A DNA stretch of 64,000 nucleotides from Norana najaformis (lineage: Eukaryota > Annelida > Clitellata > Crassiclitellata > Hormogastridae): the NCBI GenBank assembly GCA_964023275.1, contig OZ029928.1, forward strand, positions 17,862,599 through 17,926,598, in the 5' to 3' direction. The notes below the pieces were generated by a model. That model saw only the letters and a program-made list of their open reading frames with translations. It was not told where the DNA came from and made no database searches. The position numbers and the translations under genes are program-made. Positions 467 through 60,645 of the stretch are shown piece after piece; the stretch's first letter is position 1, and each line of letters starts with the position of its first letter.

Positions 467-3400
467 GTGATGGGTCAAGTTTTTGTAGTAATTTATTTGA
501 TTACAAATTCTCTAATTGGAAATTTTTTAAATTAGAAATCTGTTTATTATGATGTATTTCTTAGAATTTCTTTATAAAAGGGTCATTTCCTGCAATTAAA
601 AGGCACCGGATGAATACAAATTAAAATATATATTAAAAGTTACATTACTCTGTTGATCATATATTACATCTGAGCTTGAAGGGGCACAATTGGAATTGCC
701 TCTGTTTATCCAGCCCTTGCATTCCTGGGAACGTCGAGGCACCTCGATGCGTGAGGATGCTGGGTCAGTTACCGATATACCGGCTATATTTCAGAGATTT
801 GAATCTCGGGCTAGCACAGTCCGTACACAGGGACCTTAAATGGTGTGGCACCCATTCTAACATGTAGCAGAAGTGAAGGATCTCACCCGATTAATTCATT
901 GAAAAATGAGCAGGGTCAAGGCCATACAGTCGCTATAGAAAAACGTCTACATTTACATTCACTTCGATTTGGCTACCTAAAGCAGGTCATAGATACTCCA
1001 CAAGACATGGCGCCCATTCAGACGGGCAGCAATGGCGAAGGATCTCACCCAATAAATTCATTGCAAAATTATCAGAGTTGAGGCCATACACTTGCTATAG
1101 AAAAACGTCTAACTTTACATTTACCTCGATTTGGCTACCTAAAGCAGGTCATAGATACTCCACAATACATGGCGCCCATTCAGACGGGCAGCAGTGGCGA
1201 AGGATCTCGCCCTATAAATTCATTGAAAAATGATCAGGGTCGAGACCATATGGTTGCTGTAGAAAAAAGGTGTACACATTCTTTTCAACGGATTTCTGAA
1301 CTCGGATGGAAGCTTGGCTGGTGCAGCTTCCAGAATCGCCCTTGACCCTGCTTGTTCTGAATCATATTAAATGTTGATGTGATTCCTTATGTTTCAGAAA
1401 AATTAGCTGAAGCCAGCCGTAAGCACGTCAACCTGCAGTCCGATCTAACCGCGCTCGACAGTGTCAAAGTTGTGCCTGGATTGCGCCGACGTTCGATAGC
1501 TCGAATTATGAAGAAGAAAGAGGAGGACGTGGCAGAGCCCCCGGTGCGGAAATCCCTGCACGACGTGAAACTGGCCTTCAGCGAATTCTACTTGAGTCTT
1601 GTTCTGCTCCAGAACTACCAGACCCTCAACTTCACTGGGTTTCGCAAGATCCTTAAAAAACATGATAAGGTTCACTTTGAGGCAACTGCATTTTGCTTTG
1701 TAAAACATCGTGATATGTGACGTTATCAGTGTATGTAAGTATGTGTGTATGAATGCACATACATATGTAAGTATGTGTACGTATATACGTTTGTATGTAC
1801 GTGTGTAGGTATACGTGAGTATGCATGTATGTTTGTGTATGTATGTATGTATGAATATATGTGTGTATTTATGTATGTACAGGTGTATGTGTGTTTTTGC
1901 ATTTATGTATATGTGTATCTGAGCTTTTCTACACCACCTTTTTACCCTTTTCTCTTGCCTGTCTAAATCATGTTATAATTCTAAAAGAACGACTAGTAAT
2001 AAATGTCAACTGTGTTGGCTGATGTTACCTGAATTCACCTCACCTGACTTGACCTGATCTTGCCATGAACCAGTATTCTTCTTAAGTTGTTTGTAAAGTC
2101 GTGGAATCTATTGCATTTCTGCAGTTGACACATTCAGATCGCGGTTCTCACTGGCGCCAGGGAAATGTGGAAACGGCTCCGTTCTACACCAACAAGGAAG
2201 TCGATCATCTGATCAAAGAGATCGAGGTCAGGATCATAAGAGCTGGTCTGCAGTCGAGTCTTATCTAATGACTTCTATGGCGCCGTTATCATAATGCATG
2301 AAGCACAATTGATGGTTGCTTCAAGATCATAATACACGAAGCCTGAAAACTCACTATTTCTCACTGGCTTTCAAACATCTGGATATCTAACTCTTTTCAC
2401 CTGGCGACTGACTATACACGCCTCCTATTCGCATTTCTGTGTGTGACTTTGCGCTCGTTTAAAGTTTTCGTAATAATAATAATATAGCACTAATTGATGT
2501 TCATTCAAGATCATGATGCATAAAGCCTCAATCGATGGTCACTTCAACATCATAATAAATAAAGCATCAATTGATGGTCACTTCAAGATCATAAAGCAAC
2601 AATTGATGGTTGCTTCAAGATCATAAAGCAACAATCGATGATCGCTTCAAGATCACAAAGCAACAATCGATGGTCGCTTCAAGATCACAAAGAAACAATC
2701 GATGGTCGCTTCAAGATCATAAAGCATCAATCGAAGGTCACTTCAAGATCATAAAGCAACAATCGACGGTCGCTTCGAGATCATAAAGCAACAATCGAAG
2801 GTCACTTCAAGATCTTTAAGCATCAATTGATGGTCACTTCAAGATCATAAAGCAACAATTAATGGTCACTTAAAATGAAACTGTAATAAAAAATCACAAT
2901 CCGTTGGAGAAGCAGAATCGACATCGAAAATCTGGTATAATATTTGCATGACATGGTGGCTAGTATTCCTAGAGCTGGCCAGAGGTACCTGCTTTGAGAG
3001 TAAGCAGAGAGGTTCTTGAAGAGAGGTATTTTAGGCTTCATGAGATCCATGTAAGGATGTAAATGCAGAAGGTAGGACATCCATGGTCTTACCTCTTTGA
3101 AGAAGTGAAATTTTAAAATTATTTTCCATAATTTAAAATTTACTTCTAATTCAAAATGAAATTTATAATTCAGGTTAATGCCCTTTTTATTTTCATGTTA
3201 ATTTTTTTTCGTTTTGCTTTGCTTACCGTGTTTTTGCTTTTCGCTGATTTCAAACAACAGAATTTATTCACGATGAAGTTGGAAGGTGGTAACCGTCAGA
3301 AGGCCATGAAACGATTACGAGTGCCTCCACTTGGGGAAAAGGTGCAGCATAAACTCTGCAATTACTCTAAATATATGCTGTGCAAGAGAATTATCATGAA

Positions 3401-6400
3401 ATTATTTAATATGCTGTTTAATTTGAACTTTCATAATGGTGTTATCTTTATCTTATCTTTATTCCAGCTACCCGCACTTTTGAGGTGAATTCATAAATTA
3501 ACGCGATATAAGTATCTGATTAATAATTATAATAATAATAATAATAGTAATAGTAATAGTAATAATAATAATAGTAATAATAATAGTAATAATAATAGTA
3601 ATAATAATAGTAATAATAATAATAATAGTAATAATAATAATAGTAATAATAATAATAGTAATAATAGTAATAATAATAGTAATAATAATAATAGTAATAA
3701 TAGTAATAATAATAGTAATAATAATAGTAATAATAATAATAATAGTAATAATAATAATAGTAATAATTTTAGTAATAATAATAATAGTAATAATAATAAA
3801 GCAACAATCGATGGTCGCTTCTGCTCACTTATGTCTCCGGACTAATTTTTTCACCACCTGAGGGATTATACCTACCTTGGGTTAAAAAAAATAATAATAG
3901 TAATAATTATAGTAATAATAGTAGTAATAATAATAATAACTTATTTACTTCTTGTGGTTGTGTGCAGGAAAATCCATGGACCACGTTCCGTATCGGAATG
4001 TTTTCCGGCATATTCCTCATTCTTGCGGTTGTTGCGGTTATTGCAGGTACGTGCGCCTCCTTGTAATCTACAGCCGTAACGTAATCAACGCTCGCAGGTT
4101 TTTAAGGTCCTTGAAAGTCACCAGTTACTAACAAATCGATATTCAGACTTTACTGTTACTGGTGATTTATTAATTTATATTTTTATTGGAATATTATGCT
4201 TATGATTTATTTATTTTAGTAATTTTAATTTAATATTATTAATTAATTTTTTAATGGAATACTATTTGTATTATTACTTCTGATTTATTGTTTCGTGTTT
4301 TGTTGTTAATGCAGTACTAACTTTTGTAGCCGTTTACACAAGCGATCAGCATGCAGCAGACTGGAAACCCGCTCTGCGCATGTACAGAGGAATGTTCCTG
4401 GTGATCTTGTTTGTGTTCTTGCTGGGGATAAATACGTATGGATGGAGAGCCTCTGGGGTCAATCACGTGCTTATATTCGAATTGGATCCGAGAAACCATC
4501 TTACCCACCAGCAGTTCATGGAGGTTAGAAACGACATGATATTTATATGATGACTACGATGTTGGTGGTGATGAGGATGAAGACCACTATGATGTATGTA
4601 TGTGTATGTATTATGTGTGTATATATGTATGTATATATGTATGTATGATGTATGTACGATGTATGTATGATGTATGTATTATGTATATATGTAGTATGTG
4701 TGTATGTATTATGTATGTATGTTTGTATGTATGATGTATGTATTATGTATATATGTAGTATGTGTGTATGTATTATGTATGTATGTTTGTATGTATGATG
4801 TATGTATTATGTATATATGTAGTATGTGTGTATGTATTATGTATGTATGTATGATGTATGTATTATGTATATATGTAGTATGTGTGTATGTATTATGTAT
4901 GTATGTTTGTATGTATGATGTATGTATTATGTATATATGTAGTATGTGTGTATGTATTATTGTGTATGTATTATGTATGTATGTATGATGTATGTATTAT
5001 GTATATATGTAGTATGTGTGTATGTATTATGTATGTATGTTTGTATGTATGTGTATGTATTATGTGTGTATGTATGTATGTATATATGTATGTACGATGT
5101 ATGTATGATGTATGTATTATGTATATATGTAGTATGTGTGTATGTATTTATGTATGTATGTTTGTATGTATGTGTCATTGAACTCCGTGTAGTACCTTTA
5201 AGTACCTCATTGGTTAAAGCATATGTCAAGTCGCCTCTGTGCGTGAGGATACTGGTTTGCATACCGACAGTGGCTGTATTTCCAAGATTTTAATCTCATG
5301 CTAGCATGATGCGTACACAGGGACCTTAAATGGCGTGGCGCCCATTCAAACGGGCAGCGGTGGTGAAGGATCTCACCTGATAAATTCATTGCAAGATGAG
5401 CAGGGTCGAGGCCACACGGTCGCTATAGAAAACCATCTACATTTATTTATGTCTCAAGAGTGTTGCACATTTGGCTATTTTAGGGTGGGTGGAAAATGCT
5501 GAGGCAACTCTAGCAACAGAAGGAATGCAGTGGATTCATTTGTAAAAATTAATAGAGATGAATGGAGAAGCTGCACTGCCTGATGTGAAGTAAAGTAAAG
5601 TAATCATGCAGTGGAAGACTGTGTCAGGGAAAGGTCCAACACAGGATACAGAATGGACAGCAGTGATCGCCAGCCCGACTGACGACTTATTTTGGTGTGT
5701 TTTTCTGTCACCAGGTGGCGAGTTTCTTGGGCGTGATGTGGTGCATAAGCATCCTGTCGTACCTGTTTAGTCACCTCATGCAGCTTCCTGTCCACGTCCA
5801 TCCTCTCTGCCTTCTCGGATTTGTCATCCTATTCCTCGTCAATCCATTTCCGGTTTTCCATTATCGTTCCAGACGTTGGCTACTCAAGGTCTTGGTAAGT
5901 CTGTCTCCTCTTTTCCAGGTGTCAGTATGATCTTCTTCTTCTCTATTATTATTATTATTATTGTTATTGTTATTATTATTTTTATTATTATTGTTATCAT
6001 CATCATCCTATATGTTCATAGTAGAGTTCCGGAGAAGCAGATGGCGTTCCCACGCTGGACAGCTACTGAGAGTCTTTGAAGCAGTTGTTATTGCAATTGT
6101 TATTGTAATTATTATTATTATTATTTTTATTACTATTGTTATTGTAATTATTATCATTATTATTGTTATTATTATTATCATCATCATCATGGATTATTGT
6201 AATTATTATTATTTGTATTATTATTATTATTATTGTTATTGTAATTATTAGTATTATTATTGTCATTGTTATTGTAATTATTATTATTATTATTATTGTT
6301 ATTATTATTATTATTATGTCTGCATTTATTAAGTGCCACTATGTAATGACTACGAATCAATCGATGGTGCTGAGCAATTGTGAGTGAAGGACTTGCTCAA

Positions 6401-9400
6401 GGTCCCTACACAGTAACCGTCTAAGGGGAGAAGGCTTGAACCCGTACTCTACATGTTACAAGCGGAGCGCTCTATCCAATCGGCTACTATGCCCCACAGT
6501 TAGTGAGGTCAGGAGTTCAACTCACTGCCGCTTACCTCCAGTGAACTTGGCAGTAATATGTAAATCTCGTAAACTTCTCAATACCACGCAAAAGCCGCAT
6601 AAGTGAGATCTACTTATTCGCCAAACGGAGCGAGTATGCTTATTCGCCAAACGGAGCGAGTATGTTATTATTATTTCTGCATTTATTAAGCGCCACTGTG
6701 TAACGACTACGAATCAGTTGATAGCACCGAGCAGTTGTGAGTGAAGCGCTTGAGGCTCAAGGCCCCTACACAGTAACCGTCTCAGAGGAAACTTGAACCC
6801 GTATTCTCAGCATACAAGCCGAGCGCACTCTAACCGATTGACCACCGTGCCCCGATATTGCTTGTACATGCCTTTAAAGATCCTTGCGAAGGCATTGTAC
6901 TTTTTGCATTTTGTGGAATTGTTTGCTGTTTTACGATGTTATTCTAAGATCTGGATGGATGTGTTTTGTTTAGTTCTGCATCTTCACGGCTCCTTTCCAC
7001 TACGTTGGTTTCGCTGACTTCTGGGTGGCTGACCAGCTGAACAGCCTCACGACCGTCCTGCTCGACTTTGAATACCTCGTCTGCTTCTACTCGATCGAAG
7101 TCGATTGGCTTGGATCGAACAGTCAGTACATGCACTTATGTATATTGTTGCGAGGACACTTGTGTAATGGAAGGTTGTTTGGGTCTGAAGGTGACACGTG
7201 CCCATGAAACAGTCTGTTGAAGGAGAAAGGGTCAAGAGAGAAGGTTGTTTGGGTCCCATGATGGATTGTCCATGTACCGATCTGTTGAAGGAGTGTTTGA
7301 AGGTGTGTTTTGGAGGGGGTTTAAGACTATATAAATGGGAAGTTTTATGTTGATGCGTTTTACGAGTTTTCGTAAGAAACGTGTGAAATAACTGTTGAAG
7401 CCATGTGAACTGAGTTGTCGCTGAAACACGTATTTTGACTCGTAACAATATGTGTATATATTCATACCGCTTTTTAAAGGTTTTTAACAGGCGCTACTAA
7501 TGCTTTAATGAGGAAACAGGGTGATTGCTTGGAGAAGGAGATCATGCAAGGAACAGTTCCGGGAGCAAGAGCAAGAGGAAGACCAAGGAAGAGTTGGATG
7601 GACAACATCAGCGAATGGTCCGGTATAGCCACAGAGAAGTTGCTGAGAGGAACCGAGGATAGGAGTGGATGGAAAAGAATCGTCTACAATGCGACCAACC
7701 CTCGTATCGAGGACGGTTGAAAAGAGAGAAGAGACTAATGCTTTGATGCATACAGTCTCTTTAGAACGTTATTGCAGAGTCCAATCTGTAGTTTAGGACA
7801 TTATTGAAGAGTCTGATCTGTAGTGTTTTAAGTCTTTGAGTGTTCAGAATACATTGCAATGTGACAGAATACGCATCTTGTATATAAAATGCAATGCCAA
7901 TACATATATACATAATACATACATCATACATACATGGCCTTGCAGAAACTGAGTAATGCTGGATAGTGGCCGTGATTGAGTAGTAGGAACGAATTTCCTA
8001 CACGCGTTGGCTGACTGTGCACTGGTTCTCTGTTGCAGAGAAGCACATATGCGGAAGTGTGACGTACGGTGTGCGTCCACTGGTTGCCTGTCTTCCAGCT
8101 TGGTTCCGTTTTGCTCAGTGCCTTCGACGTTACCGGGACACGAGGCTTGCGTTTCCGCATATCGTGAATGCAGGGAAATACTCGACTACATTTTTTGTTG
8201 TTCTTTTTTCGACGCTGTACAGCGCCTACCGAAGTGAGTCTTAATCAGACCTCCCCATATCTGCCTCACCAAGCTTCTTTTGACTGATAACCTGTGTATA
8301 TTATTATTATTTTTATTATTGTTATTTGTATTATTATTATTATTACTATTGTTGTGTTGTTGTTGCAAATATTGTAATTGTTATTATTATTATTATTCTT
8401 GTTACTACTACTACTATTATTATTGTTATTATTCTTGTTACTATTACTATTATTATTATTACTGATTATTATTAATATTATTATTGCATTTATTATGCAT
8501 ACAAGGTCAGAAAATCTGAATCTGAGGCACGAAGCAATTGTGAGTGAAGGACTTGCTCACGATCCCTACACAGAAACAGTCTAAGGGATAAGAGGCTCGA
8601 ACCGTGTGTGTTACAAGCCGAGCGCTCTATCCAACCAGCTACAGTACCCCACCAAAGCTGAAAGTAGCTCTTTTACGGGGGCTTTGTAGAAAATGGAGAG
8701 TTTACACTGGCGGTACAATGATCTATCTTTGCTTGAAACCTGTTGACCCTGTTTTTTGAGCGCTTCTGAGCAGAGATGTCTTAAAGAAAACTAGTATCCC
8801 ATATTCCACAAGTGAGACCTAGTGGAGGCGCTCATTTCCTTTTCTTTAGGCCCTTGAGCCGGCAGTGAACGAATCCCAAGGTCCTGGACATGGGGCCAGT
8901 GCATCGCAAGACTTGCCGTTTACTTCCCAGCTTGCACCGCTACCAAATTCTACTGCTTGGTGACAGAGGCACGGTGTCAGCAAACAACTTGCCCTGGGTC
9001 ATTACACGGAGTCAAACCCGCAGCCACGTGATCATTGACCAAACGTGTTACCGATCTTAGAGAGGTGTGATGTAAATTTGCTGATCAGTGATTGGATGAG
9101 TCTGGATAAAAATGACATTTGCTTCTGATGTTTTCCTCCTCTGAAGCTCAGCACGGCGAAGAGGTCCTGCAGAACAACGCCTTCTTCTACCTCTGGATCA
9201 TCTCAGCCTTGATCAGCACCTGCTACACGTTCGCCTGGGACATTAAGATGGACTGGGGGCTCCTCGACAGAAACGCGGGCGAGAACCGAGGCCTTCGGGA
9301 GGAAATCGTCTATCCGCACAAGGTCTGCAGCGAGGCTTCAGTCTGTCTTGGCTGTAGAATTGACTGTTGAGAGCTATATAAATACTGTGTTGCAATACAT

Positions 9401-10972
9401 TCTTTCTTCTCGTTACATCTCTATTCTTTTCTAAGCTTTTGTGTTTTATTTCTGGGATAAAAGATGTGTATATGTTTGTTTTTAAGAGGTGTATACTACG
9501 TAGCTGTGTATTTCTATAGCATTCTAAGATTTTCTTGAAAGAATTCTGTGCTGGCCTCGAAGATGTAGGAGTTCAGTAAGAGCATGAAGTTTGTGAGTCA
9601 ACAAATAGTTGTTATTTCCGCATTTATTAAGCGCCACTGTCTAATGACTAATGCATGAATCGATGGTGCTGAGCAGTAGTGAGTGAAGGAATTGCTCAAT
9701 ATCCCTACATCATCTTAGAGGAGGCTCGAACCCGTACTCTCTACGTTACAAGCCAAGTGCTCTACCAACAGACTACCAATTCCTCTGCTAGTAGGCTACT
9801 GGTTATGCCACCACTGTTGGGTTCTTGCAGACGCATAGAACCAAACGATTCTGTTTTTGAAAGTGTAGCTCACTGCGTGTAGTGTACCAACTGTTTGTAG
9901 TGGTAGCAGCAAAAATCATTATCTAGTCTGATTTAATGACTGCTACAGCGCCATTATCATAAAGCAAAAGACATCAATCGATAGTCGATTCAAGTGAAAT
10001 CGTAATCAAAATTATAATCCATTGGAGAAGCCGGGTTGAATTCAGATAAGTCAGAGAAATCAGAAGTTAGGCTGCAATGGGTAAAAGTTGGGCTATGGTG
10101 GGTAAAAGTTCGGCTGCAGTGGGTAAAAGTTGGGCTGCGGTGGGTAAACGGTTTGGTAGACTCGTATGTAAGTATGTCTATCGTGTACTGGATTATGGTT
10201 ACTTACTATGTATTTTGTGCATTGGTAAATTGTTGTGTTGTTGTTGGGTAGAGTTACTATTACTTGGCCGTTGTGGAGGATTTGGTGTTGCGGTTGTCGT
10301 GGGTTCTTACGGTGTCCATCGACGAGGATGGGGTGATAGATTCGGAGATTTTGAGGACGATCCTTGCATCGTTTGAAGTCTTCAGGTGATTTTCGCTTCG
10401 TTCTGTTTTGTCTTCCTTTGAATGGTTGACTTCCTTTGAATGATTGAATTCCTTTGGATGATTGAATTCCTTTGAATGATGAATTCCTTTGAATGATGAA
10501 TTCCTTTGAATGTTTGGATTCCTTTGGATGATTGAATTCCTTTGAATGATGAATTCCTTTGAATGATGAATTCCTTTGAATGTTTGGATTCCTTTGAATG
10601 ATTGAATTCCTTTAATGTGGATATCTGGGCACTGTCTGATGAACTTTTTATGCATTATTAACTTTGACACCATGTAGGCAATTTAACTTGAAGCGACCGT
10701 CGATTGATGCCATGTTCATTATGATAACGGTGCTATAAAAGTCATTAGATTAGATTTTTGGTTCAAAATGCAGACGATTCGTGTGGAACTTTTTCCGTCT
10801 GGAGAATGAGCATCTTAACAACTGTGGTCAGTTCCGAGCGGTTCGCGACATCTCGATCGCGCCGTTGAACGCAAACGATCAGGCTCTTCTCGAACGGATG
10901 ATGGACGAGGAAGACGGCGTCACGAACCGACGGAAAACTGGAAGCAAACCGTGGAAACTGCCAAAGAGGTGA
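365..10972 (+). CDS. XPR1: XPR1-like phosphate exporter (SPX-EXS), 5' partial, 12 exons
   Basis: Homolog of XPR1, the plasma-membrane inorganic phosphate exporter gated by inositol pyrophosphates through its cytosolic SPX domain. Exons: 365-466, 1398-1669, 2125-2226, 3261-3341, 3968-4046, 4315-4523, 5715-5894, 6974-7121, 8039-8233, 9147-9322, 10252-10385, 10774-10972. All phases agree and give about 624 residues; vertebrate XPR1 is near 696, so roughly the first 43 residues (first SPX exon) lie left of the window. Visible landmarks are SPX motifs ([24 protein letters not shown]), hydrophobic membrane segments ([30 protein letters not shown]) and EXS signatures ([45 protein letters not shown]). 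The protein ends soon after DDGVTNRR, shorter than the vertebrate tail; the stop overlaps a splice-donor-like sequence, so a further 3' exon is possible. Confidence 0.93.
729..970 (+). repeat. R1 tRNA-like SINE
   Basis: Contains the R1 body (AATCTCGGGCTAGCAC, GAAGGATCTCACCCGATTAA, GAAAAACGTCTACATTTACA) in the XPR1 intron between exons a and b. Confidence 0.7.
1003..1275 (+). repeat. Two further R1 3'-half copies in tandem
   Basis: The segment from GGCGCCCATTCAGACGGGCA to the R1 tail recurs twice at about 155-bp spacing, each preceded by CTAAAGCAGGTCATAGATAC: a local tandem duplication of the SINE 3' half. Confidence 0.65.
1398..1669 (+). CDS. XPR1: XPR1 exon b (SPX core)
   Basis: Encodes EKLAEASRK through [17 protein letters not shown] to the Lys-rich KILKKHDK, the inositol-pyrophosphate-binding helix of SPX. 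Acceptor TTTCAG; donor AAG|GTTCAC. Leaves in phase 0. Confidence 0.93.
1740..1920. repeat. (TATG)n microsatellite
   Basis: Degenerate TATG/TGTA repeat in the XPR1 intron. 1921-2100 shows nothing notable. Confidence 0.85.
2125..2226 (+). CDS. XPR1: XPR1 exon c (end of SPX)
   Basis: 34 codons with [15 protein letters not shown], matching the end of SPX. Acceptor TCTGCAG; donor GAG|GTCAGG. Phase 0 on both sides. Confidence 0.9.
2255..2930 (+). repeat. R7 element with internal ~30-bp minisatellite
   Basis: The R7 head (TAATGACTTCTATGGCGCCG) runs into about a dozen copies of a unit like AAGCATCAATCGATGGTCAC then TTCAAGATCAT, and ends with R7 3' sequence (CACAATCCGTTGGAGAAGC). Confidence 0.7.
3261..3341 (+). 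CDS. XPR1: XPR1 exon d (SPX-membrane linker)
   Basis: 27 codons with [17 protein letters not shown], the conserved linker before the first membrane helix. Acceptor AACAACAG; donor AAAAG|GTGCAG. Confidence 0.9.
3525..3945. repeat. (AAT/AGT)n microsatellite, interrupted
   Basis: Long TAATAATAG repeats at 3527-3800 and 3885-3945, separated by an R7-like scrap (CAACAATCGATGGTCGCTTC). Confidence 0.85.
3968..4046 (+). CDS. XPR1: XPR1 exon e (first TM helix)
   Basis: [19 protein letters not shown] is the first membrane helix. Acceptor GTGCAG; donor GCAG|GTACGT. Leaves in phase 1. Confidence 0.9.
4315..4523 (+). CDS. XPR1: XPR1 exon f (TM, GINTYGW motif)
   Basis: Encodes [20 protein letters not shown] then [16 protein letters not shown], strongly conserved in XPR1. 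Acceptor ATGCAG; donor GAG|GTTAGA. Confidence 0.93.
4585..5178. repeat. (GTAT)n array with higher-order structure
   Basis: TATG repeat with a recurring block containing ATTATGTATATATGTAGTAT, at roughly 100-bp spacing. Both strands give long spurious Tyr/Val/Cys/Met or His/Thr reading frames. Confidence 0.85.
5200..5450 (+). repeat. R1 tRNA-like SINE
   Basis: Near-full copy: head TACCTCATTGGTTAAAGC, B-box region, GGCGTGGCGCCCATTCAAAC, tail GCTATAGAAAACCATCTACA. 5451-5714 is unremarkable intron. Confidence 0.75.
5715..5894 (+). CDS. XPR1: XPR1 exon g (TM helices)
   Basis: 60 codons with [15 protein letters not shown] and [18 protein letters not shown], which precede the EXS core. Acceptor CACCAG; donor GTAAGT. 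Confidence 0.92.
5945..6320. repeat. (ATT)n microsatellite
   Basis: ATT/ATC repeat interrupted at 6010-6085; its right end abuts the tail of an R3 SINE on the minus strand. Confidence 0.85.
6322..6497 (-). repeat. R3 tRNA-like SINE
   Basis: Read on the minus strand: A-box-like region beginning GGGGCATAGTAGCCGATTGG, B-box GGGTTCAAGC, tail TTAATAAATGCAGA running into (AAT)n. Confidence 0.75.
6660..6855 (-). repeat. R3 tRNA-like SINE
   Basis: Second minus-strand copy: GGGGCACGGTGGTCAATCGG at its 5' end, GGGTTCAAG B box, tail AATAAATGCAGAAATAAT. Confidence 0.78.
6974..7121 (+). CDS. XPR1: XPR1 exon h (EXS start)
   Basis: Encodes [20 protein letters not shown] and the helix with [11 protein letters not shown]. 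Acceptor GTTTAG; donor A|GTCAGT. Phase 1. Confidence 0.92.
7505..7735 (+). mobile_element. LINE 3' coding remnant (endonuclease-RT C-terminus)
   Basis: 70 codons reading [19 protein letters not shown], then [18 protein letters not shown] and a stop. This matches the usual C-terminal end of non-LTR endonuclease-reverse-transcriptase proteins (GRPR..W.DNI, A.DR..WR). It is a 5'-truncated copy in the XPR1 intron. 7122-7504 holds nothing else I recognise. Confidence 0.75.
8039..8233 (+). CDS. XPR1: XPR1 exon i (EXS core)
   Basis: Encodes [18 protein letters not shown] and [14 protein letters not shown], the EXS hallmark. Acceptor TTGCAG; donor A|GTGAGT. Split codons match both neighbours. Confidence 0.94.
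8297..8495. repeat. (ATT)n microsatellite
   Basis: ATT/CTA repeat adjoining the tail of the following minus-strand R3 SINE. Confidence 0.85.
8488..8655 (-). repeat. R3 tRNA-like SINE
   Basis: Minus-strand copy, with TGGGGTACTGTAGCTGGTTG at its 5' end and a tail entering (AAT)n. Confidence 0.7.
8800..9052 (-). repeat. R6 tRNA-like repeat
   Basis: Minus-strand copy: TTGGTCAATGATCACGTGGC, B-box-like GGGTTTGACTCC, then AAACGGCAAGTCTTGCGATG. Same family as 11010-11275 and 40560-40835. Confidence 0.7.
9147..9322 (+). CDS. XPR1: XPR1 exon j (EXS)
   Basis: Encodes [19 protein letters not shown], then [12 protein letters not shown] and REEIVYP, all conserved EXS motifs. Acceptor CTGAAG; donor AAG|GTCTGC. 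Confidence 0.93.
9610..9790 (-). repeat. R3 tRNA-like SINE
   Basis: Minus-strand copy with GGGTTCGAGC B box and tail CTTAATAAATGCGGAAATA. 9323-9609 is unremarkable intron. Confidence 0.7.
9935..10035 (+). repeat. R7 repeat
   Basis: ATGACTGCTACAGCGCCATT, CATCAATCGATAGTCGATTC and AATCCATTGGAGAAGCCG follow the R7 order without internal expansion. Confidence 0.6.
10068..10150. repeat. ~21-bp minisatellite
   Basis: About four copies of a unit like GTGGGTAAAAGTTGGGCTGC. Confidence 0.75.
10252..10385 (+). CDS. XPR1: XPR1 exon k (EXS)
   Basis: Encodes [18 protein letters not shown] and ILASFEVFR. Acceptor GGTAG, chosen because it keeps phase 0 and the [10 protein letters not shown] alignment; donor AG|GTGATT, phase 2. 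Confidence 0.88.
10410..10615. repeat. 17-18-bp minisatellite
   Basis: About 12 copies of TTCCTTTGAATGATTGAA, starting some 25 bp after the exon k donor in the XPR1 intron. Confidence 0.88.
10675..10760 (-). repeat. R7 repeat fragment
   Basis: Minus strand: AATCTAATGACTTTTATAGC and CATCAATCGACGGTCGCTTC. Confidence 0.55.
10774..10972 (+). CDS. XPR1: XPR1 exon l (C-terminus, stop at 10970-10972)
   Basis: Encodes [18 protein letters not shown] and the [12 protein letters not shown] segment, then a short basic tail ending at TGA. The bases AAGAG|GTGAGA around the stop form a good donor, so a spliced longer tail is possible. Confidence 0.9.
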
Positions 10973-11009
10973 GATAACTGATTTTCAGGTCGTATGGGGG
11001 CCTTTATAT

Positions 11010-17356: not shown

Positions 17357-19774
17357 AACTATAATTTTATTATTATTAAAATATCCGAAACAGAAATCTC
17401 TCTCTCATTGGACACCTTTAAAACGTTTTCATATGATGTTATATGAAGCATCGATTTCGCCAATGGTTGAATAAACCCTACGCGTCCAGTGTAAGCGTTA
17501 GCAAATGTGACATCGACTTCAATTCTCTGATAGCCACAAGATGTCACTAAGGTTCTGGTACAAGATCCACTACATTCTGTTAGCTACATTGGTCAACGCA
17601 TACGTCAATGGAGCTCTTTGTTCGTGAGGATGCCGGTTCGTGTCCCGGTCTTGGTTTATTTCAGAGAGTTGAATCTCGGGCTTAGCACGGTCCGTACACG
17701 GGGACCTTAAATGACATCACAGTATTGTGTGTGTATATGTATATCTAGTTACATATATACAGTAGAGTATTTAGTAGGGCCGGTGTAACGTAATCGTGAT
17801 TTGTGGATTTCTTTAGCGCCTAAAAGCTAAGTCGTGAGAACCAGCTGATTACAGACTCTAGATTATAGGGTAGTACATTACTGCATTGTTATGTAGTGTT
17901 CTGTATCGCTTCCTAGTGTATCGTCTCTGGCCTACGAGTCAACGCTCAGTTGATGGACATATGGCGTGTTAACAAATGCATTATTTACTTACTTACTTAG
18001 TGACTTACTGACTGACTGACTTACTTGCTCGCTCACTCTCATTCACACCCATCTACCCACCCACCCACACACACACCCACTCACCTACCCGCTTACACCC
18101 ACTTACTCACCAACCCACTTACTCCCTCATTCACTCACCCACCTAGCCACCCACCCACTCACCCACCCACCCACTTTCTCACTCACTCACCAACCCACTT
18201 ACTCACTCACTCCCTCGTTCACTCACCCACCTAGCCACCCACTCACTCAATCATCCACCCACCCACTTGCTTGCTCACTCGCTGACTCACTCACCCACTC
18301 ACCCACTCATTCACTTTGGAATGAAGAACTGAGATCACTGTGTTCTTCTTCACTTAGGTCGATGAAATCGGTGCAGAACGATCTTCAGATGTTGTTCTTC
18401 GTGGTTCTTCTCTTTTAGCAAATGCCTCGGGCTTCGAACCCGGGCCATCGAGGTCCACTTACTTTCAACTCACCAGGGCAAGTGCCGTAATCGTAAACTC
18501 GATATTTCTACAGCGCCCAACGAGAGCTAAGTCGCGGGAACCAGCTTATTCACAGGCGCTCGGTCAAAACAAAATCGATAGGCAAAAGGGTACATTTCCA
18601 GCATCCGTTTCCATTGTAGCCTGGTTCCTGTTCGTAATCGTAATCGTAAACTCAAAATTTCAAAAGCGCTACATAAAAGCTAATCGCAGGGCATCAGCTT
18701 GTTAGTGAGAGGTATACGTAGCGTCCGTAGCCTTAGATCTAGAGAGACGGCCATATTCTCGAACCCTTCCTCTGAAACATACTCTCGAACTCTTGTCTAA
18801 AACTATACTCTCGAACCCTTCCTCTGAAATATACTCTCAAACTCTTACTCTAAAACCGTACTTTCGAACTCTTGTCTAAAACTATACTCTCGAACCCTTC
18901 CTCTGAAACATACTCTCGAACTCTTACTCTAAAACCGTACTTTCGAACTCTTCTCTAAAACTATACTCTCGAACCCTTCCTCTGAAACATACTCTCGAAC
19001 TCTTACCCTAAAACCATACTCTCGAACCCGTACTGTCCCCGTTACGACTAGGCCCTTTAACCAATCGGCCACCGTGCCCCACTAGGCTTTGAGGATATGC
19101 AGAATGAGATTGGAATTGGGCAAAATTGCAATCACTCATTTTGACTTTGTTGAATGATTGCAGGAAAACGAGGAGTTGAAATCGAGGCTGTCTGAAATGA
19201 CGGTCAAACTTCAGTCACATCAGGACAACATTTCTCGTCTGCTTGAAAACAATCAAAAGTATTTAATGAAGAAAATCCAATTAATAGATTCATTTTGGTG
19301 TTCGACGTCAATTCATTCATTCATTCATTCATTCATTCGTTCATTCGTTCATTCATTCATTCATTCTTTCATTCATTCATTCATTCATTCATTCGTTCAT
19401 TCATTCATTCATTCGTTCGTTCGTTTGTTCGTTCATTCATTCATTCAGTCAGTCAGTCATTCATTCATTTGGTCGTTTATTGATCTATTTATTCCTTCAT
19501 TCGTTCATAGTTTATTCATTCATTCATTAGTTCATTCGTTCATTCATTTGTTCATTAGAAATTCATTCGTTCGTTTGTTCGTTCGTTCATTCAACTATTC
19601 GTTCATTCTTTCGTTCATCCATTCACGCGAATATTTCAGGCTGCTGGAGCAAAATGTTGATTTGATGGGACGAAGTTTCGACTCTTCTGGAAATCAGTTC
19701 AAGCACGCGACGAACCTGGAGGTGAGCTTCACAAAAAAGATGATGATGACGACGACGATGATAATTTTTATAAG

Positions 19775-24137: not shown

Positions 24138-27100
24138 TGTGTGCTTCAACACCCAACACCACCCACCATATTTGCCACGCTGTCTCTCTGTGTGACTCTT
24201 GGATCTTGACCTGGAACCGAACCCTTTTGCCGATTGATTTTGTTTTGACTGAGCGCCTGTGAATAAGCGTGACGGGGCTTTCGTTGGGCGCTGTAGAAAT
24301 CTCTGAATTACGATTACGACTTGCTCAAGGTCCCTACACAGTAACCGTTTCAGGGACCAATCGAAGAACCAGAAATACAGACTGCAGACGGAGATATGAT
24401 GTAATAAACGGAAAGACCTTTAGCGTGGCGACGCTGAGTGATTCTTCAGCTTTATAGTATTTCTCCGTCATTCTGTCGTTTTTCTCCTCGAGACGACTGA
24501 TTTCCTCCTTCAATTCGTTCATCTGCTGCGCATACCTGTCTCGACTCCGTACTCTCGAACCCATACTCTCAAACCCATACTGTCGAAACCATACTCTCAA
24601 ACCCATATTCTCGAACCCATACTCTCGAACCCATACTCTCGAAACCATACTCTCGAAACCCGTACAAGCCGAGCACAATAACCAAATGGTCACCATTCCC
24701 CCACAGCATGTATATAGTTTCACGTTGCAATGTGATAGTAATTCTGCAATTACGTATATTTTAAAGTAACAAATTCTTTTTAAACAATAAATCTGTTATA
24801 ATTTCTTGTTCTTTTTTGAATTCTCGATAGTATGACAACCTGCGAACTCAGGCGATTGCGATGAAGGACAGGTATGCGCAGCAGATGAACGAATTGAAGG
24901 AGGAAATCAGTCGTCTCGAGGAGAAAAACGACAGAATGACGGAGAAATACTATAAAGCTGAAGAATCACTCAGCGTCGCCACGCTAAAGGTCTTTCCGTT
25001 TATTACATCATATCTCCGTCTGCAGTCTGTATTTCTGGTTCTTCGATTGGTCCCTTATTCCTGGATTCGGTCCTGGATTCGGTCCTGGATTCGGTCCTGG
25101 ATCGGTCCTGGAATCGGTCCTGGAATCGGTCCTGGATTCGGTCCTGGATTCGGTCCTGGATTCGGTCCTCTGGTTCTTCGTTCTTTCGATCCTTCGGTCC
25201 TGCGATCGCTCCTTGGATCCTTCGGTTGGTCCTTTTGGTCCGCAGAGTCTACCTTAAGAGAGTACTAGTCACTCCAGGCCGTTACCCTTGCGCTTTTTAA
25301 ATTTCTCCACTTTGATATTCAACCTGCTCCAGAGGTAAGACTCCTCCCTTTCGGGAGTGCCCCGGAGGTGGACTCCTGCAAGCACTCATCAGTCAAGTGA
25401 ATCGATACAGTTTCCGTCACCAGTTCAAAGAATGCTGTAGTAACCTCTCCCTCTGCCCCTGGGGACGGGGTTTCAGGATTTCACCCCACACGCCACAGGG
25501 TACGCAACCCACTCCGAGCCGATCACTTGCTTTAAAGGCGGCTGCTTGTCTCTGTTCAGTTCGAACCGGGCTACCGGCACCAGTCCCCTCAGGTGCTCCA
25601 TCACAGCCCTCGACAATGGTGTGTAATCGTAATCGTAATCGTAATGTCGAGATTTCTAAAGCGCCCAACGAAAGCTATGTCGCGGGAACCAGCTTATTCA
25701 CAGGCGCACAGTCAAAACAAAATCGATAGGCAAAAGGGTTAGGTTCCAGGTCAAGATCCAGGAGTCAGGCAGTCAGACAGTCGGACGGCTACGGTGGATG
25801 GTGTTTTAAATTGAAGCGAGAAGAGTGATAAGGAGAAGAGGAAGAATCAGGATAAGATTTTTGGAAAAGAAGTGTGTGTGTGTGTGTGACAGCCCTCCGC
25901 CCCGGATTACATACTCCTTTGTTCTTTCCATTCCTCCTTTGTTCTTTCCATTCCTCCTTTGTTCTTTCCATTCCTCCTTTGTTCTTTCCATTCCTCCTTT
26001 GTTCTTTCCATTCCTCCTTTGTTCTTTCCATTCCTCCTTTGTTCTTTCCATTCCTCCTTTGTTCTTTCCATTCCTCCTTTGTTCTTTCCATTCCTCCTTT
26101 GTTCTTTCCATTCTTCCTTTGTTCTTTCCATTCCTCCTTTGTTCTTTCCATTCCTCCTTTGTTCTTTCCATTCCTCCTTTGTTCTTTCCATTCCTCCTTT
26201 GTTCTTTCCATTCCTCCTTTGTTCTTTCCATTCCTCCTTTGTTCTTTCCATTCCTCCTTTGTTCTTTCCATTCCTCCTTTGTTCTGCCCTTTGATCTATC
26301 AGTCCTTCGGTCTTTCGGTCCTTTGTTTGGTCCTTTGCACTGTCTGGTTTTTCTTGGCTTTTGCTGAGCCATAAGCGACGAAGTCATGTCATGTCATGTG
26401 TCGTGTCATGTCGTGTCATGTCGTCTGTCGTGTCATGTCGTGTCATGTCATGTCATGTCATAGTGGTATCGTTCAATTTATTCCATGGTCCAATTTCATC
26501 ATGCGCAATTCAGACAACAATGGAACAGTGTTTATTATTTCGTGACTCTTTTCCTTTCAGTACGAAGAGTTCAAGGTTCGATCGCTAGATGGCCACAGGG
26601 ATCTCGAGGTCAGGGTTCACCAGTTGGAGGCGGAAGTGGTCAGCACCAAGTCCGAGCTTGACGAAGCCCTAAGACGAGGGGTTCGACTTCAGCTGGACCT
26701 CGATGCGGCCTCGAACAAATACCTACGCCTGGCTAAAAGCGCTGAGGCACTGGAGATAGAACTGGAACAAGGAAAGAGTCACGTGACTTCAACGACGGTG
26801 GCGCCTCTGGCGAGACCAGAATGCACCAAAAACGAAAAGGATATTCAACCCCACTTCCCACTCCCCGAAAACGCCAACGAAGTTTTATTGATGTCACCAG
26901 GTGACGCTAGCAACATCTTGAAATGCGAACCAAAGACAGAAAAACAAGAACACGAGCAAGAACGCAAAGAACAGGAAGGAGAAGAACAGGAAAAACAACC
27001 GGAAGTGAAAGAACGAGAAGAAAATGCTGAGGAGGAGGATGAAGACGATGATGATGGAGCTAGTTTCGTGACTGCTCTGAGTGACGATGAAGTCCTCGGA

Positions 27101-35739: not shown

Positions 35740-36189
35740 AGCCAATGTGACGTCACTTAAAGATGACGCCGACAATATGACGCAATTTCAGTGGGACAGT
35801 AACCTGGTAAAGTCGATACACGTTGATTAGTTGCCATGACAGCGTCTTGTCGCCATGACGACGAGTGGTAGAGCAAGTGATGTCGTATTGTTTAAGGGTG
35901 AAGCAAAGTGACGTCAATTCTACGACGTCCGCGCGGCAGAACAACGATATCAGAAATATATGACGTCAGAAAGGGACAACAGAAAACCAAGACACCACAA
36001 AGCGACAGCAGAAATGCATGACGTCAGAAAGCGACAACAGAAAACCATGACATCACAAAGCGACAGCAGGAATGCATGATGTCAGAAGGCGACAGCAGAA
36101 ATATCTGACGTCATTAAGGTGACATCGGCTTTTGTGATTTATTTTCTCCGTTTTCCGTTTCGTAATCTCTACGCGGGCGAATGACGTCA
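35740..36189. promoter_or_regulatory. Cluster of CRE palindromes upstream of the GPCR
   Basis: Perfect TGACGTCA at 35748-35755, 35909-35916, 35961-35968, 36019-36026, 36106-36113 and 36182-36189; the last overlaps the start codon. Near-matches lie between. CREB/ATF binding is inferred from the motif. Confidence 0.55.
35960..36135. repeat. 58-bp tandem repeat containing CRE
   Basis: Units start at 35961, 36019 and 36077 with TGACGTCAGAAAG (third TGATGTCAGAAGG) followed by GCGACAACAGAAAACC and CACAAAGCGACAGCAG; a half unit starts at 36106. Confidence 0.85.
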
Positions 36190-37323
36190 GCAGATCGTGC
36201 GGTTTGGACGGTTTACTTCGTTTCCGCTTTCCTTGTCATCCTAACAAACGCGTCCTCGCTCTGGATGATCCACGCCGCTCGGAAACAGCGATTTCCGGTA
36301 GCCAACTGTCGCCCCCTAGCGGTCAGCCTGCTCGTCGCTGACCTACTTCGCGGCATTTCCGGTTTGTGTCAGGCGCTCTTCGCCCTTCTGAACTCGACCA
36401 GTGGCACTCCCTCTGAGCAGGTGCGTCTCTGCCGAATTCTAGGACTGACCCAACAATGGTCGAGCGTGACCTCCTGTTCGCTTACTGTTATATTCTTCTA
36501 CGAGGGTCTGGCTCGCACACGTGACCCTACCGTCTACTTCCGGCGTTCCCGGGTCGCGGCCCTCGTCGGAGCGGCGGGTTTCCATGGTTTCGTGACGTCA
36601 TTTCTGCCGATCGCAGGGTGGGGTAGCTACGCCTACCACCCTCAGCTGTACGTCTGCGAGATCGATAGCAGAGAATCGATCGACTACCAGCTTTATCTCG
36701 TCTGCAGCGGCTTGCTGTTGCCATGGTTATCGGGCGTCATCATCTACGTCATAATCTTGTTGGCCGTTCGTCGGAGGTCGCTTTACGTCGACCCCGCACG
36801 TGACCTTTACGTGACCCCGGACGTGACGAGCGGAGTTGATCGCGATACTTCGGAGCGAGTAGTCGTTAGTCGTAAAGTAGTCGAAGAATCGTTCGAGTAC
36901 TCGGGAAGGTGTGCGGTAATGTTCGCCTTTTTCTGCGTCTCTTGGTTGGACAACGCCATCTTGCGACTTCTTCACAAGCGCGGAGTATTCGTTCGCCTAG
37001 CAACGGGCGGACTGTGGCTCTACGTTGTCATGGCAACAGTCGGATTGATGACGTCACTCGTCAATCCTTTGGTGTTGCTAGGAATGCCGTTGAGACGTTG
37101 CCTTGGTTACTGCGTAGCGGGAAAATGCCGCCACGGTGGAGTCAGATATAAGAGTTCGACGCCCGAAATCGTTCACGGCGCTGGCGAACACGACGACGGT
37201 TTCCAAGTACACGGTTGCTTAGCAATCGTTGCTAGGGTCTGCGTAGGTGGCGATAAAGGGCAGTGTCCGGTAAAACCGACTGAGGTCCACTGTCCAGCAA
37301 CCACTCACTTTGAAAGATACTGA
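36181..37323 (+). CDS. Intronless divergent rhodopsin-family GPCR
   Basis: Single-exon frame of 380 residues with seven hydrophobic segments, roughly residues 8-32, 44-66, 85-108, 126-148, 168-195, 240-262 and 275-302. Class A marks include Leu-Ala-Val-like LLVADLL with Asp2.50 in TM2, Cys in CRILGL at the top of TM3, GWGSYAYHP with a later Cys in loop 2, LLLPW in TM5 and SLVNPLVLLG in TM7. Unusual points: EGL stands where DRY is expected (Arg3.50 lost), TM6 lacks CWxP (FFCVSWLDN), and NPxxY is NPLVL. The tail has a Cys cluster (RRCLGYCVAGKC), possibly palmitoylated. Ligand and subfamily are not recognisable; nearby genes give no hint. Start chosen as first in-frame Met before TM1. Confidence 0.85.
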   Translation: MTSADRAVWTVYFVSAFLVILTNASSLWMIHAARKQRFPVANCRPLAVSLLVADLLRGISGLCQALFALLNSTSGTPSEQVRLCRILGLTQQWSSVTSCSLTVIFFYEGLARTRDPTVYFRRSRVAALVGAAGFHGFVTSFLPIAGWGSYAYHPQLYVCEIDSRESIDYQLYLVCSGLLLPWLSGVIIYVIILLAVRRRSLYVDPARDLYVTPDVTSGVDRDTSERVVVSRKVVEESFEYSGRCAVMFAFFCVSWLDNAILRLLHKRGVFVRLATGGLWLYVVMATVGLMTSLVNPLVLLGMPLRRCLGYCVAGKCRHGGVRYKSSTPEIVHGAGEHDDGFQVHGCLAIVARVCVGGDKGQCPVKPTEVHCPATTHFERY

Positions 37324-41322: not shown

Positions 41323-44300
41323 TGTGGGGGATAATAATTAATAATAATAATAATAAAAATAATAATAATGATAATAATAATAATGATAATAATTAATAAT
41401 AATAATAATAATAATTAACAATAATAATGATACTAATTAATAATAATAATAATAATTAACAATAATAATGATACTAATTAATAATAATAATAATAATTAA
41501 CAATAATAATAATATTAATGATAATAATTAATAATAATAATAAAATAATAATAATTAATAATAATAATAATAATGATGATAATAATAATAATAAATAATA
41601 ATTATTAATAATAATAATAATAATAATAATAATGAATAATAATAATAATAATAATGATAATAATAATAACAACAATAATAATAGATATGCATGTAAAAAC
41701 GTGTAAAGAGATGATAGGAAATGTGGTTTCTACCTTGTAGACGTCGAACGTGTCGATAATAGAATCGAAAGCTGTGTACAAATCATTCAACATATCGACC
41801 ACCTGCAAATGGAATTCCACGGATACATCAAACGAGGCAATCGCAACCTACTTCAGTCCATTTCATCCAGGTCCCATCTGAACCAGACCAGTCGAATGAA
41901 ATCAAGTCTGATCTAATCTAATCTGTCTAGTCTAGACAAATCTAATCTGTTCTTTGTTACAGGGCAGTACTACATCTTAACTTACCTTGCCTCTCCTTAG
42001 ACCTCTTATACCTCTTCTTATAGCTCTTTTACCTCTTCTTAGACCTCTTAGACCTCTTCTTAGAATTCTTATACCTCTTCTTAGACCTCTTAGACCTCTT
42101 CTTAGAATTCTTATACCTCTTTTTAGAGCTCTTATACCTTTTCTTATACCTCTTATACCTCTCCTTAGACCTCTTATACCTATTCTTAGACCTCTTATAC
42201 CTCTTTTTAGAGCTCTTATACCTCTTTTTAGAGCTCTTATACCTCTTCTTATACCTCCTCTTATACTTCTTATGCCTCTTCTTATACCTCCTCTTATACC
42301 TATTATACCTCTTCTTATACCTCTTATACCTCTTCCTACCATATGACGCCGTGGTATATTACTCGTACATATACCTGCATGAGAAGATTTAGGGTCCGTA
42401 AAACATAATCGTAATCACCAGAGATTTCAGCAGCGCCCAAAAGTTAAGTCGTTAGAACTCGCCTATATGCAGGCGCTAAATAAAGAGCAAATAAGGGTAG
42501 CAGGCAGGGTCAGGTTCAATTACAAGTTCAGGTCAAAAGGTCAGACAGGTAGGTCCGTGCTTGACCTTAAATGGCGTGGGGCCCATTCAAATGGGCAGCG
42601 GTGGTGAAGGATCTCACCCAATCAATTCATTGCAAAATGAACCGGGTCAAGGCCATACGGTCACTTTAGAAAAACGTCTACATTTACATTTACTCAGTGG
42701 CTTTTTTCTAGAAAAACAGGTTCCGGAACTGAACAATTATGGAATTTTGTGCTAAAATCTTGATATTTTTTATCAATGAATAAACACTGAAAACAGTGTA
42801 AAGTTTATAAACACTGAAATTGAATTAAACAAGTTACATTATATTACATAATTAAAATAACTTAGTAACACAATTCCTTTATTAAAAACTAAATTATTTT
42901 TTATTAGCCGAGAAAAGGTGCCGGAACGTCGTTCCGAAGCGTTCCATCTCAGTAGAGGCACTGAATTTACTTAGCTGACCTGCATGGGATTGCTGTCTGC
43001 ACAGAGTGCCGTGAAGCCGCAGATGTCGCTGTAGTATATCGTCACGCATTCGAACTTTTCCGCTTGAACGATCTCACCGTACATCAACTGAACCGCAACC
43101 GACCTGGAACAGTCACAGCAGCCAAGCGTTGATGCGTGACGCTTTTCTTCTGAACGACATTTACACCAGCAATACTCCATCAGTGTATCTCGCAGCTTTC
43201 TGAAAGGCGCTATAAACTTCCAGATAGTGATACCACCATCACCACCACCTGCACTGTCACTTTTTCTACCACCATCAACACTCCCACATTCTCTTATACC
43301 ACAGCCATGACTAAGACAGCCACCACTACCACCTCGACCATCACTGCCATGACCAAGACCAACACCATCACCACTACCACCAACTTCACCACCACAACCA
43401 TCTCGATCACCACCACCACGAACACCACCATCACCACAACCATCTCGACCACCACCACCACCATCTCGACCACCACCAAAACCACCATCTCGACCACCAC
43501 CACCACCACAACCATCTCGATCACCACCACCACCACCACCAACATCTCGACCACCACCATCTCGACCACCACTACCACCACCACCAATGACAGTGTTTTG
43601 TTTTTATTTCTTATTGTTGTATGTTACATTTGTAATTGTAATTTTAAGTGTAATAGTAATTACGCAGTACTTTTCAGATGGAACGCTCCGGAACGGCGTT
43701 CCAGCACCTTTTTTAGGCCAATAAAAATAATTTAGTTTTTAATAAAAGAACTATGTTACTAAGTTAATTTAATTTTGCAACATAATGTAACTTATTTTAA
43801 TTCAATTGCAGTGTTTACAACTTTACACCGTTTTCAGTGTTTAGTGATTGATAAAAATAATGAAATTTTAGCACAAAATTCCATAATTGTTAAGTTCCCA
43901 AACCTTTTTTCTAGAAAAAAGCATTGAATTGTTGTAACTGTAACAGTAGTTACTGTAAGTATTAGTGGTAATTGTAACAGATACGGTCTGTTGCGAAGTC
44001 TTGCCTCGGTAGCATAAGGTAGAGGATTTCCTCGGCTCTCTTCTTCTGCTCCAGATAGTCAACTGTTCTCTCCTCAACCAGAGCCTCGAGGTTGTACGCA
44101 TACTGCTCCAACCGAGACAACAGGTTGTCCAGCAGGTTGCCCGAGTCTCTGCAATTCCACCCGACATACAACATGCAGTCCCTGTCTGTTCATATGGATG
44201 GCTATCTGTCAGTATCTGTGTCTGTCTGTGTGTTTGTGTGTCTTTCTTGTTGTATCTGTCTGTGTCTGTATGTCTATGTCTCAATCCGCCTATCTGTCTG

Positions 44301-60291: not shown

Positions 60292-60414
60292 CCTTGGATC
60301 GCGGGACTTGAAGACTGTGTCGAAAACGAGGTATGACTGTCGGCTAAATCCAACGAGCAGCAAGGTACATCCGGTTAAGGAAATCGTCCTTCTCGTCTTC
60401 CATTTAATCCTTAC

Positions 60415-60645
60415 CGGCCGTAATTCTGTGTAATCGTAAACTTTGAATTTAAGGTAAGTGTAATCGTAAACTTTGTATCGTAGTTATTAACGATCATTGT
60501 AATAATCCTCTGGATTGACGTTACACGTAATTGTAAACTTTGTACTGTAGCTGTTACCGGTTACCGTAATAGTACTCTGAATTTACGGTAAACGTAACTG
60601 TAAACTTCGAACGTATCGTAACTGGAAACGTACTCTCGATTTATA
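60415..60645. repeat. Degenerate GTAATCGTAAACTTTG repeat upstream of cyclase
   Basis: Five or so units of about 30-60 bp with CGTAA.TGTAAACTT in the likely promoter/5' region of the cyclase gene. 60646-61065 has no recognised feature. Confidence 0.6.

Follow-up and report, generated by a model that had tools for sequence, protein, structure and literature searches.

The window, the whole stretch of 64,000 nucleotides that we analysed, corresponds to C16:17862599-17926598 in an assembly of 608 Mb and 17 contigs. On its plus strand, an XPR1/SLC53A1-like phosphate exporter gene is followed by a coiled-coil gene that contains the exon 24831-24989 (Table 1). Later exons of the exporter gene, recognised by eye, presumably lie near 4.3, 9.2 and 10.8 kb. 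Its SPX exon (1361-1720) matches PDB 5ijh_A with an E value of 1.4e-22. In the coiled-coil gene, the exon at 19158 has a weak match to the FKBP15 domain (E 5.3e-4, 20.1 bits, below the cut-off of 27), and 372 aa of joined exon peptides matched no family at 0.001. With this lone sub-threshold match and no family for the joined peptides, we left the gene as a coiled-coil gene. The exon 24831-24989 itself matches eight Pfam families weakly (E 0.01 to 0.072), each below its cut-off. Farther to the right are a rhodopsin-type GPCR frame, which is possibly intronless, and an ANF-receptor ligand-binding domain, with which a leftward-running receptor guanylate cyclase gene probably begins. Besides the inverted pair described below, the window holds a second local one, at 42679-42949 and 43676-43942 (272 aligned columns, 86% identity, 726 nt apart), in what we take by eye to be receptor guanylate-cyclase-like sequence on the minus strand. 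Elsewhere in the window this second pair is matched only as pieces of 30-34 bp, so it is either two copies of an element or an inverted duplication of greater age.

Table 1. Features of the window (positions are those of the window)
Feature	Position	Strand	Description
XPR1/SLC53A1-like phosphate exporter gene	1361-11000	+	SPX exon match and by-eye exons
SINE-A	24143-24319	+	dispersed family different from SINE-B; tail ATTACGATTACGA; abuts SINE-B
SINE-B, left half	24318-24355	-	ends in AGGG; final 4 bases common with arm 1
Arm 1	24352-24540	-	putative derived inverted copy of the exon/donor/intron stretch; first 4-5 bases (AGGGA) are SINE microhomology
SINE-B, right half	24541-24706	-	resumes at TCGACTCCGTACTC; a 14-bp tandem array within it is expanded (24539-24657)
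Predicted hairpin loop	24541-24866	+	326 nt: SINE-B right half, remaining intron including the acceptor, initial 36 exon bases
Coiled-coil coding exon	24831-24989	+	159 nt, 53 codons without a stop; acceptor AG at 24829-24830
Arm 2	24867-25055	+	putative original template: 123 exon bases, presumed donor, 66 intron bases
Presumed donor	24987-24995	+	AAG/GTCTTT, weak: 60th percentile of 4218 GTs by a weight matrix
12-bp minisatellite	25059-25169	+	TCCTGGATTCGG, 9.3 copies; begins 4 bases past the outer switch point
Rhodopsin-type GPCR long open frame	36166-37323	+	PF00001, E 2.8e-9
ANF-receptor ligand-binding domain	59614-60483	-	PF01094, E 2.2e-14

The exons up- and downstream of exon 24831-24989 look phase 0. 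Because the exon is itself in frame, its skipping would be an in-frame loss of 53 codons. Scored with the same weight matrix as the presumed donor, CAG/GTATGC at 24872, inside the exon, stands at the 99th percentile, and it is predicted to be buried too in the RNA structure described below. In three of seven other exon-end regions, whose ends were guessed, every GT is at or below the 70th percentile of this matrix. Some exon ends, perhaps that of exon 24831-24989 among them, may therefore be misplaced or use other donors.

The sequence-only reading had claimed a 189-bp perfect inverted copy of most of this exon, its donor and 66 intron bases. The alignment bears this out in full. Arms 1 and 2 are reverse complements at 189 of 189 positions, the match ends exactly at the borders of the arms on both sides, and 326 nt separate them. 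Arm 2 holds 123 of the 159 exon bases and then 66 intron bases that begin with GT at 24990. We rejected a chance match, as 189 complementary bases are perfect. Arm 2 carries on the open coiled-coil frame from the exon's acceptor and arm 1 lies within a repeat, which makes arm 2 the original. A search of the 608-Mb assembly with the arm sequence, in which very common words were skipped, gave two first-look candidates; both were scored, and they are arms 1 and 2. We thus also rejected a pair of dispersed repeats, because these two are the only assembly hits and the sequence is found nowhere else in the window or in 200 kb sampled from the assembly.

Arm 1 interrupts a genome-wide repeat, SINE-B, and two halves of one element flank it. 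SINE-B is apparently a SINE. Reverse-complemented, it resembles a tRNA-derived SINE by eye and may carry tRNA-like A and B boxes; no Rfam family reached its gathering score in the window. Its multi-copy nature is seen across the genome, where all 40 scored candidates matched, of 3574 first-look candidates. The consensus was built from 10 genome copies, chosen as those that best match the window copy at 6362, which is itself one of the ten. The left half stops at position 66 of this consensus, in AGGG. A separate alignment of 12 copies came from the window and the sampled stretches (19 rows, minus the locus itself and six short pieces). When it is read together with the consensus, the first bases after arm 1, TCGACTCCGTACTC, align with TCGAACCCGTACTC, from consensus position 75 on. 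About 7 consensus bases of SINE-B are therefore missing between the halves, and the claim that the copy splits a repeat stands. The automatic consensus alignment placed the restart at the second unit of the 14-bp array, not at the first, but all units share one position in the repeat. An earlier alignment with the whole array failed to line up the right half. As the right half consists of a 14-bp tandem array, there is no way to count units that it has lost or gained.

Both halves were also compared with six reference copies, with 500 shuffles for each copy. The left half scored above all shuffles for four of the six, and the two other copies appear to hold just the right part of SINE-B. The right tail and the whole right half each scored above all shuffles for five copies. 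For the sixth, the score was reached by 9 of 500 shuffles with the tail and by 2 of 500 with the whole half. Tandem arrays of the inner part of SINE-B, with CTCGAACCCATACT-like units, are present at two sites in the window (24539-24657 and 18751-19037), and this part seems prone to expansion. The adjoining SINE-A occurs ten more times in the window, each time on the opposite strand.

The two junctions of arm 1 differ. At the left junction the microhomology is AGGG(A), which is 4 bp by the consensus and 5 bp if the local SINE-B had the A. The right, or return, junction has 0-1 bp, at most a C. The word GGTCCCT, which had been reported at the exon-arm end and in the SINE, is present at 25049-25055 and 24329-24335, but the actual junction word is AGGG(A)/TCCC(T), of 4-5 bp. 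With respect to the proposed template switch with microhomology, the junctions fit and the left one has its 4-5 bp; however, the return junction has almost none, and break repair also fits. We infer the event, its direction and its pathway, which is either a replication-fork template switch (MMBIR) or break repair with end joining. The pre-insertion (empty) site is deduced from the repeat copies. A single inverted templated insertion, a reading that covers both the fork and the break-repair pathways, probably accounts for the locus. In this scenario, DNA synthesis or break repair within the intronic SINE-B copy would leave a 3' end in AGGG(A). This end would anneal on the opposite template to TCCC(T), which lies about 0.5 kb farther downstream, and copying would run backward through the beginning of the intron, the donor and most of the exon (25055 to 24867). 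The strand would then rejoin SINE-B about 7 bases past its departure, giving the four-point order 1-4-3-2.

Such an insertion has close relatives. MMBIR templated insertions (MMB-TI) insert near their template, inverted to it, with microhomology at the junctions, and include germline examples in people (PMC8421209). Arm 1 shares these features, in that it reproduces nearby sequence in inverted orientation and has microhomology at a junction. It differs in that its template, a coding exon together with the donor, lies 326 nt away, whereas that survey went no farther than 100 bp, and in that clear microhomology is confined to one side. The locus also resembles the four-point short-range template switches of PMC7954356 and PMC8794818, in which one event, in the order 1-4-3-2, yields both a perfect inverted repeat and a new hairpin in the RNA. 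In great apes, the patterns 1-4-3-2 and 3-2-1-4 are the majority ones that generate single inverted repeats (PMC7954356). The template-switch model of that study sets the expected 2->3 length at 10, whereas the copied length here is about 19 times that. The copied length of 189 and the template distance of 326-515 nt are above most described short events, and the insertion is a long but ordinary instance of a known mutation class.

To see how common such pairs are, we sampled 20 stretches of 10 kb (200 kb) from the 17 contigs and added the window, for 264 kb in all. Inverted pairs were sought with blastn (low-complexity filter on), the limits being a gap of at most 3 kb, 100 bp or more in length and 90% identity or higher; overlapping arms were dropped first. 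Arms 1 and 2 are the only non-overlapping inverted pair in the 264 kb that reaches these limits. At a length of at least 60 bp, two further inverted pairs appear, of 83 bp (91.6%) and 77 bp (92.2%). Direct local duplications were commoner than inverted pairs in the same test. A direct duplication of about 2.2 kb, for example, lies in a sampled stretch of contig C16 (L020:4155-6373 and 7360-9575, 98% identity, 986 bp apart). Judged by title and the start of the abstract, none of the literature matches listed describes an inverted exon copy in the exon's own intron, which does not prove its absence from print.

The age of the insertion is bounded loosely by the identity of the arms. Zero differences in 189 positions put their divergence below about 1.6% (95% upper limit), and over the 66 intron bases alone the bound is 4.4% (95%). 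Inverted arms can be homogenised and kept alike through further switching. The data allow a young polymorphism as well as an older insertion; the earlier description of the event as recent is thus compatible with the identity but weakly supported by it.

We then folded the RNA of the region. The fold of 24300-25110 had an energy of -451.8 kcal/mol, and shuffled sequences had a mean of -188.7 (sd 6.47, n=20). In folds of 24200-25200, removing arm 1 raised the mean unpaired probability of the donor from 0.001 to 0.348. For the acceptor region the value was 0.366 with arm 1 and 0.370 once it was removed. These probabilities indicate that the predicted structure buries the donor and spares the acceptor. 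The transcript is therefore predicted to form a 189-bp hairpin over the exon and presumed donor, and the long pre-mRNA hairpin of the sequence-only reading holds as a prediction. A stable duplex that covers a splice site, as in hairpins that mask exons or attract editing, is what the fold predicts here. Inverted-repeat hairpins in pre-mRNA are classically known from exon-in-a-loop splicing experiments. As in inverted Alu pairs (PMC11263572), the pre-mRNA duplex would be able to affect splicing or attract editing; here, however, the coding exon itself supplies one of the two strands, in place of an intronic repeat.

Within the preferred reading of a single inverted templated insertion, the pathway may have been break repair and not a fork template switch. 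A double-strand break in SINE-B would then have been filled with a patch that Pol theta or Pol delta copied from a nearby template, before end joining closed it. We give this narrower account, which overlaps the preferred reading and is contained in it, somewhat less than an even chance. Annealing on one side and end joining on the other fit both the asymmetry of the junctions (4-5 bp versus 0-1) and the few bases lost at the site. A hybrid mechanism of this kind is found in yeast, where foldback insertions at double-strand breaks are local and inverted, with microhomology on one side and end joining on the other (PMC11724301). That route would also give one homologous and one nearly blunt junction, and the two pathways are inseparable from sequence alone. 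However, most local foldback insertions in yeast are of 5-34 bp, with a 41-nt loop, and 189 copied bases are long by comparison (184-189 bp and 326 nt here). Distant inverted insertions in yeast are longer, with medians of 50 bp and, for one of the mutants, 150 bp (PMC11724301). For microinversions, too, template switching has been weighed against break repair (PMC8755829).

Other accounts of the inverted copy fare worse. The inverted copy of a fold-back chimera could have entered the consensus during assembly or amplification. Whole-genome amplification yields many chimeric inverted reads, and inverted duplications are visible in a resulting assembly, so that chimeras from amplified long-read libraries can end up in assemblies (PMC6218980); perfect identity would also be expected of an artefact. 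This account nevertheless looks unlikely, as there are two junctions with differing flanks, the repeat resumes within about 7 consensus bases, and the template lies 326 nt off, whereas a simple fold-back would presumably turn round once. Arms 1 and 2 are also the sole pair of at least 100 bp in the 264 kb, although this is a small sample of 608 Mb. That a pre-mRNA fragment was retrotransposed and inserted backwards is the least probable account of all, even though the copy is inverted within a repeat-rich intron. The copy keeps the exon-intron border and is unspliced as read, no poly-A or poly-T adjoins arm 1 in the sequence as read, and SINE-B is slightly shortened at the insertion site. There is also no target-site duplication, as the longest word common to the 20 bases on each side of arm 1 is 4 bp. 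The target-site duplication, poly-A and spliced template that would mark a retrocopy are thus lacking, and we disfavour one. The antisense exon copy could, finally, be a selected regulatory hairpin that controls exon inclusion or makes siRNAs against its own mRNA. In keeping with this, the hairpin extends over 123 exon bases and the presumed donor, which is weak, and skipping would be frame-neutral. However, mutation alone accounts for its form, and we regard selection for such a role as quite improbable.

As for the consequences of a single inverted templated insertion, a hairpin formed co-transcriptionally would bury the donor and lower the inclusion of the in-frame 53-codon exon. Such an effect would most likely be tolerated. 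In-frame skipping, RNA editing or self-directed siRNA are possible outcomes of the predicted duplex; by computation, editing would recode at 38 of the 48 A positions in the exon part of arm 2. We consider it doubtful that one mutation has made a self-targeting switch, in which the hairpin would hide the donor, cause in-frame skipping or recoding by editing, and yield siRNAs against its own mRNA.

The locus clearly illustrates how a single copying error could place a coding exon within a long, perfectly paired RNA hairpin. Were it not real and polymorphic, it would be an ordinary mutation. If it is real and polymorphic, it would offer a natural experiment on two questions: whether a splice donor is suppressed when it pairs with a copy in the intron upstream, and how far selection puts up with alleles of this kind.
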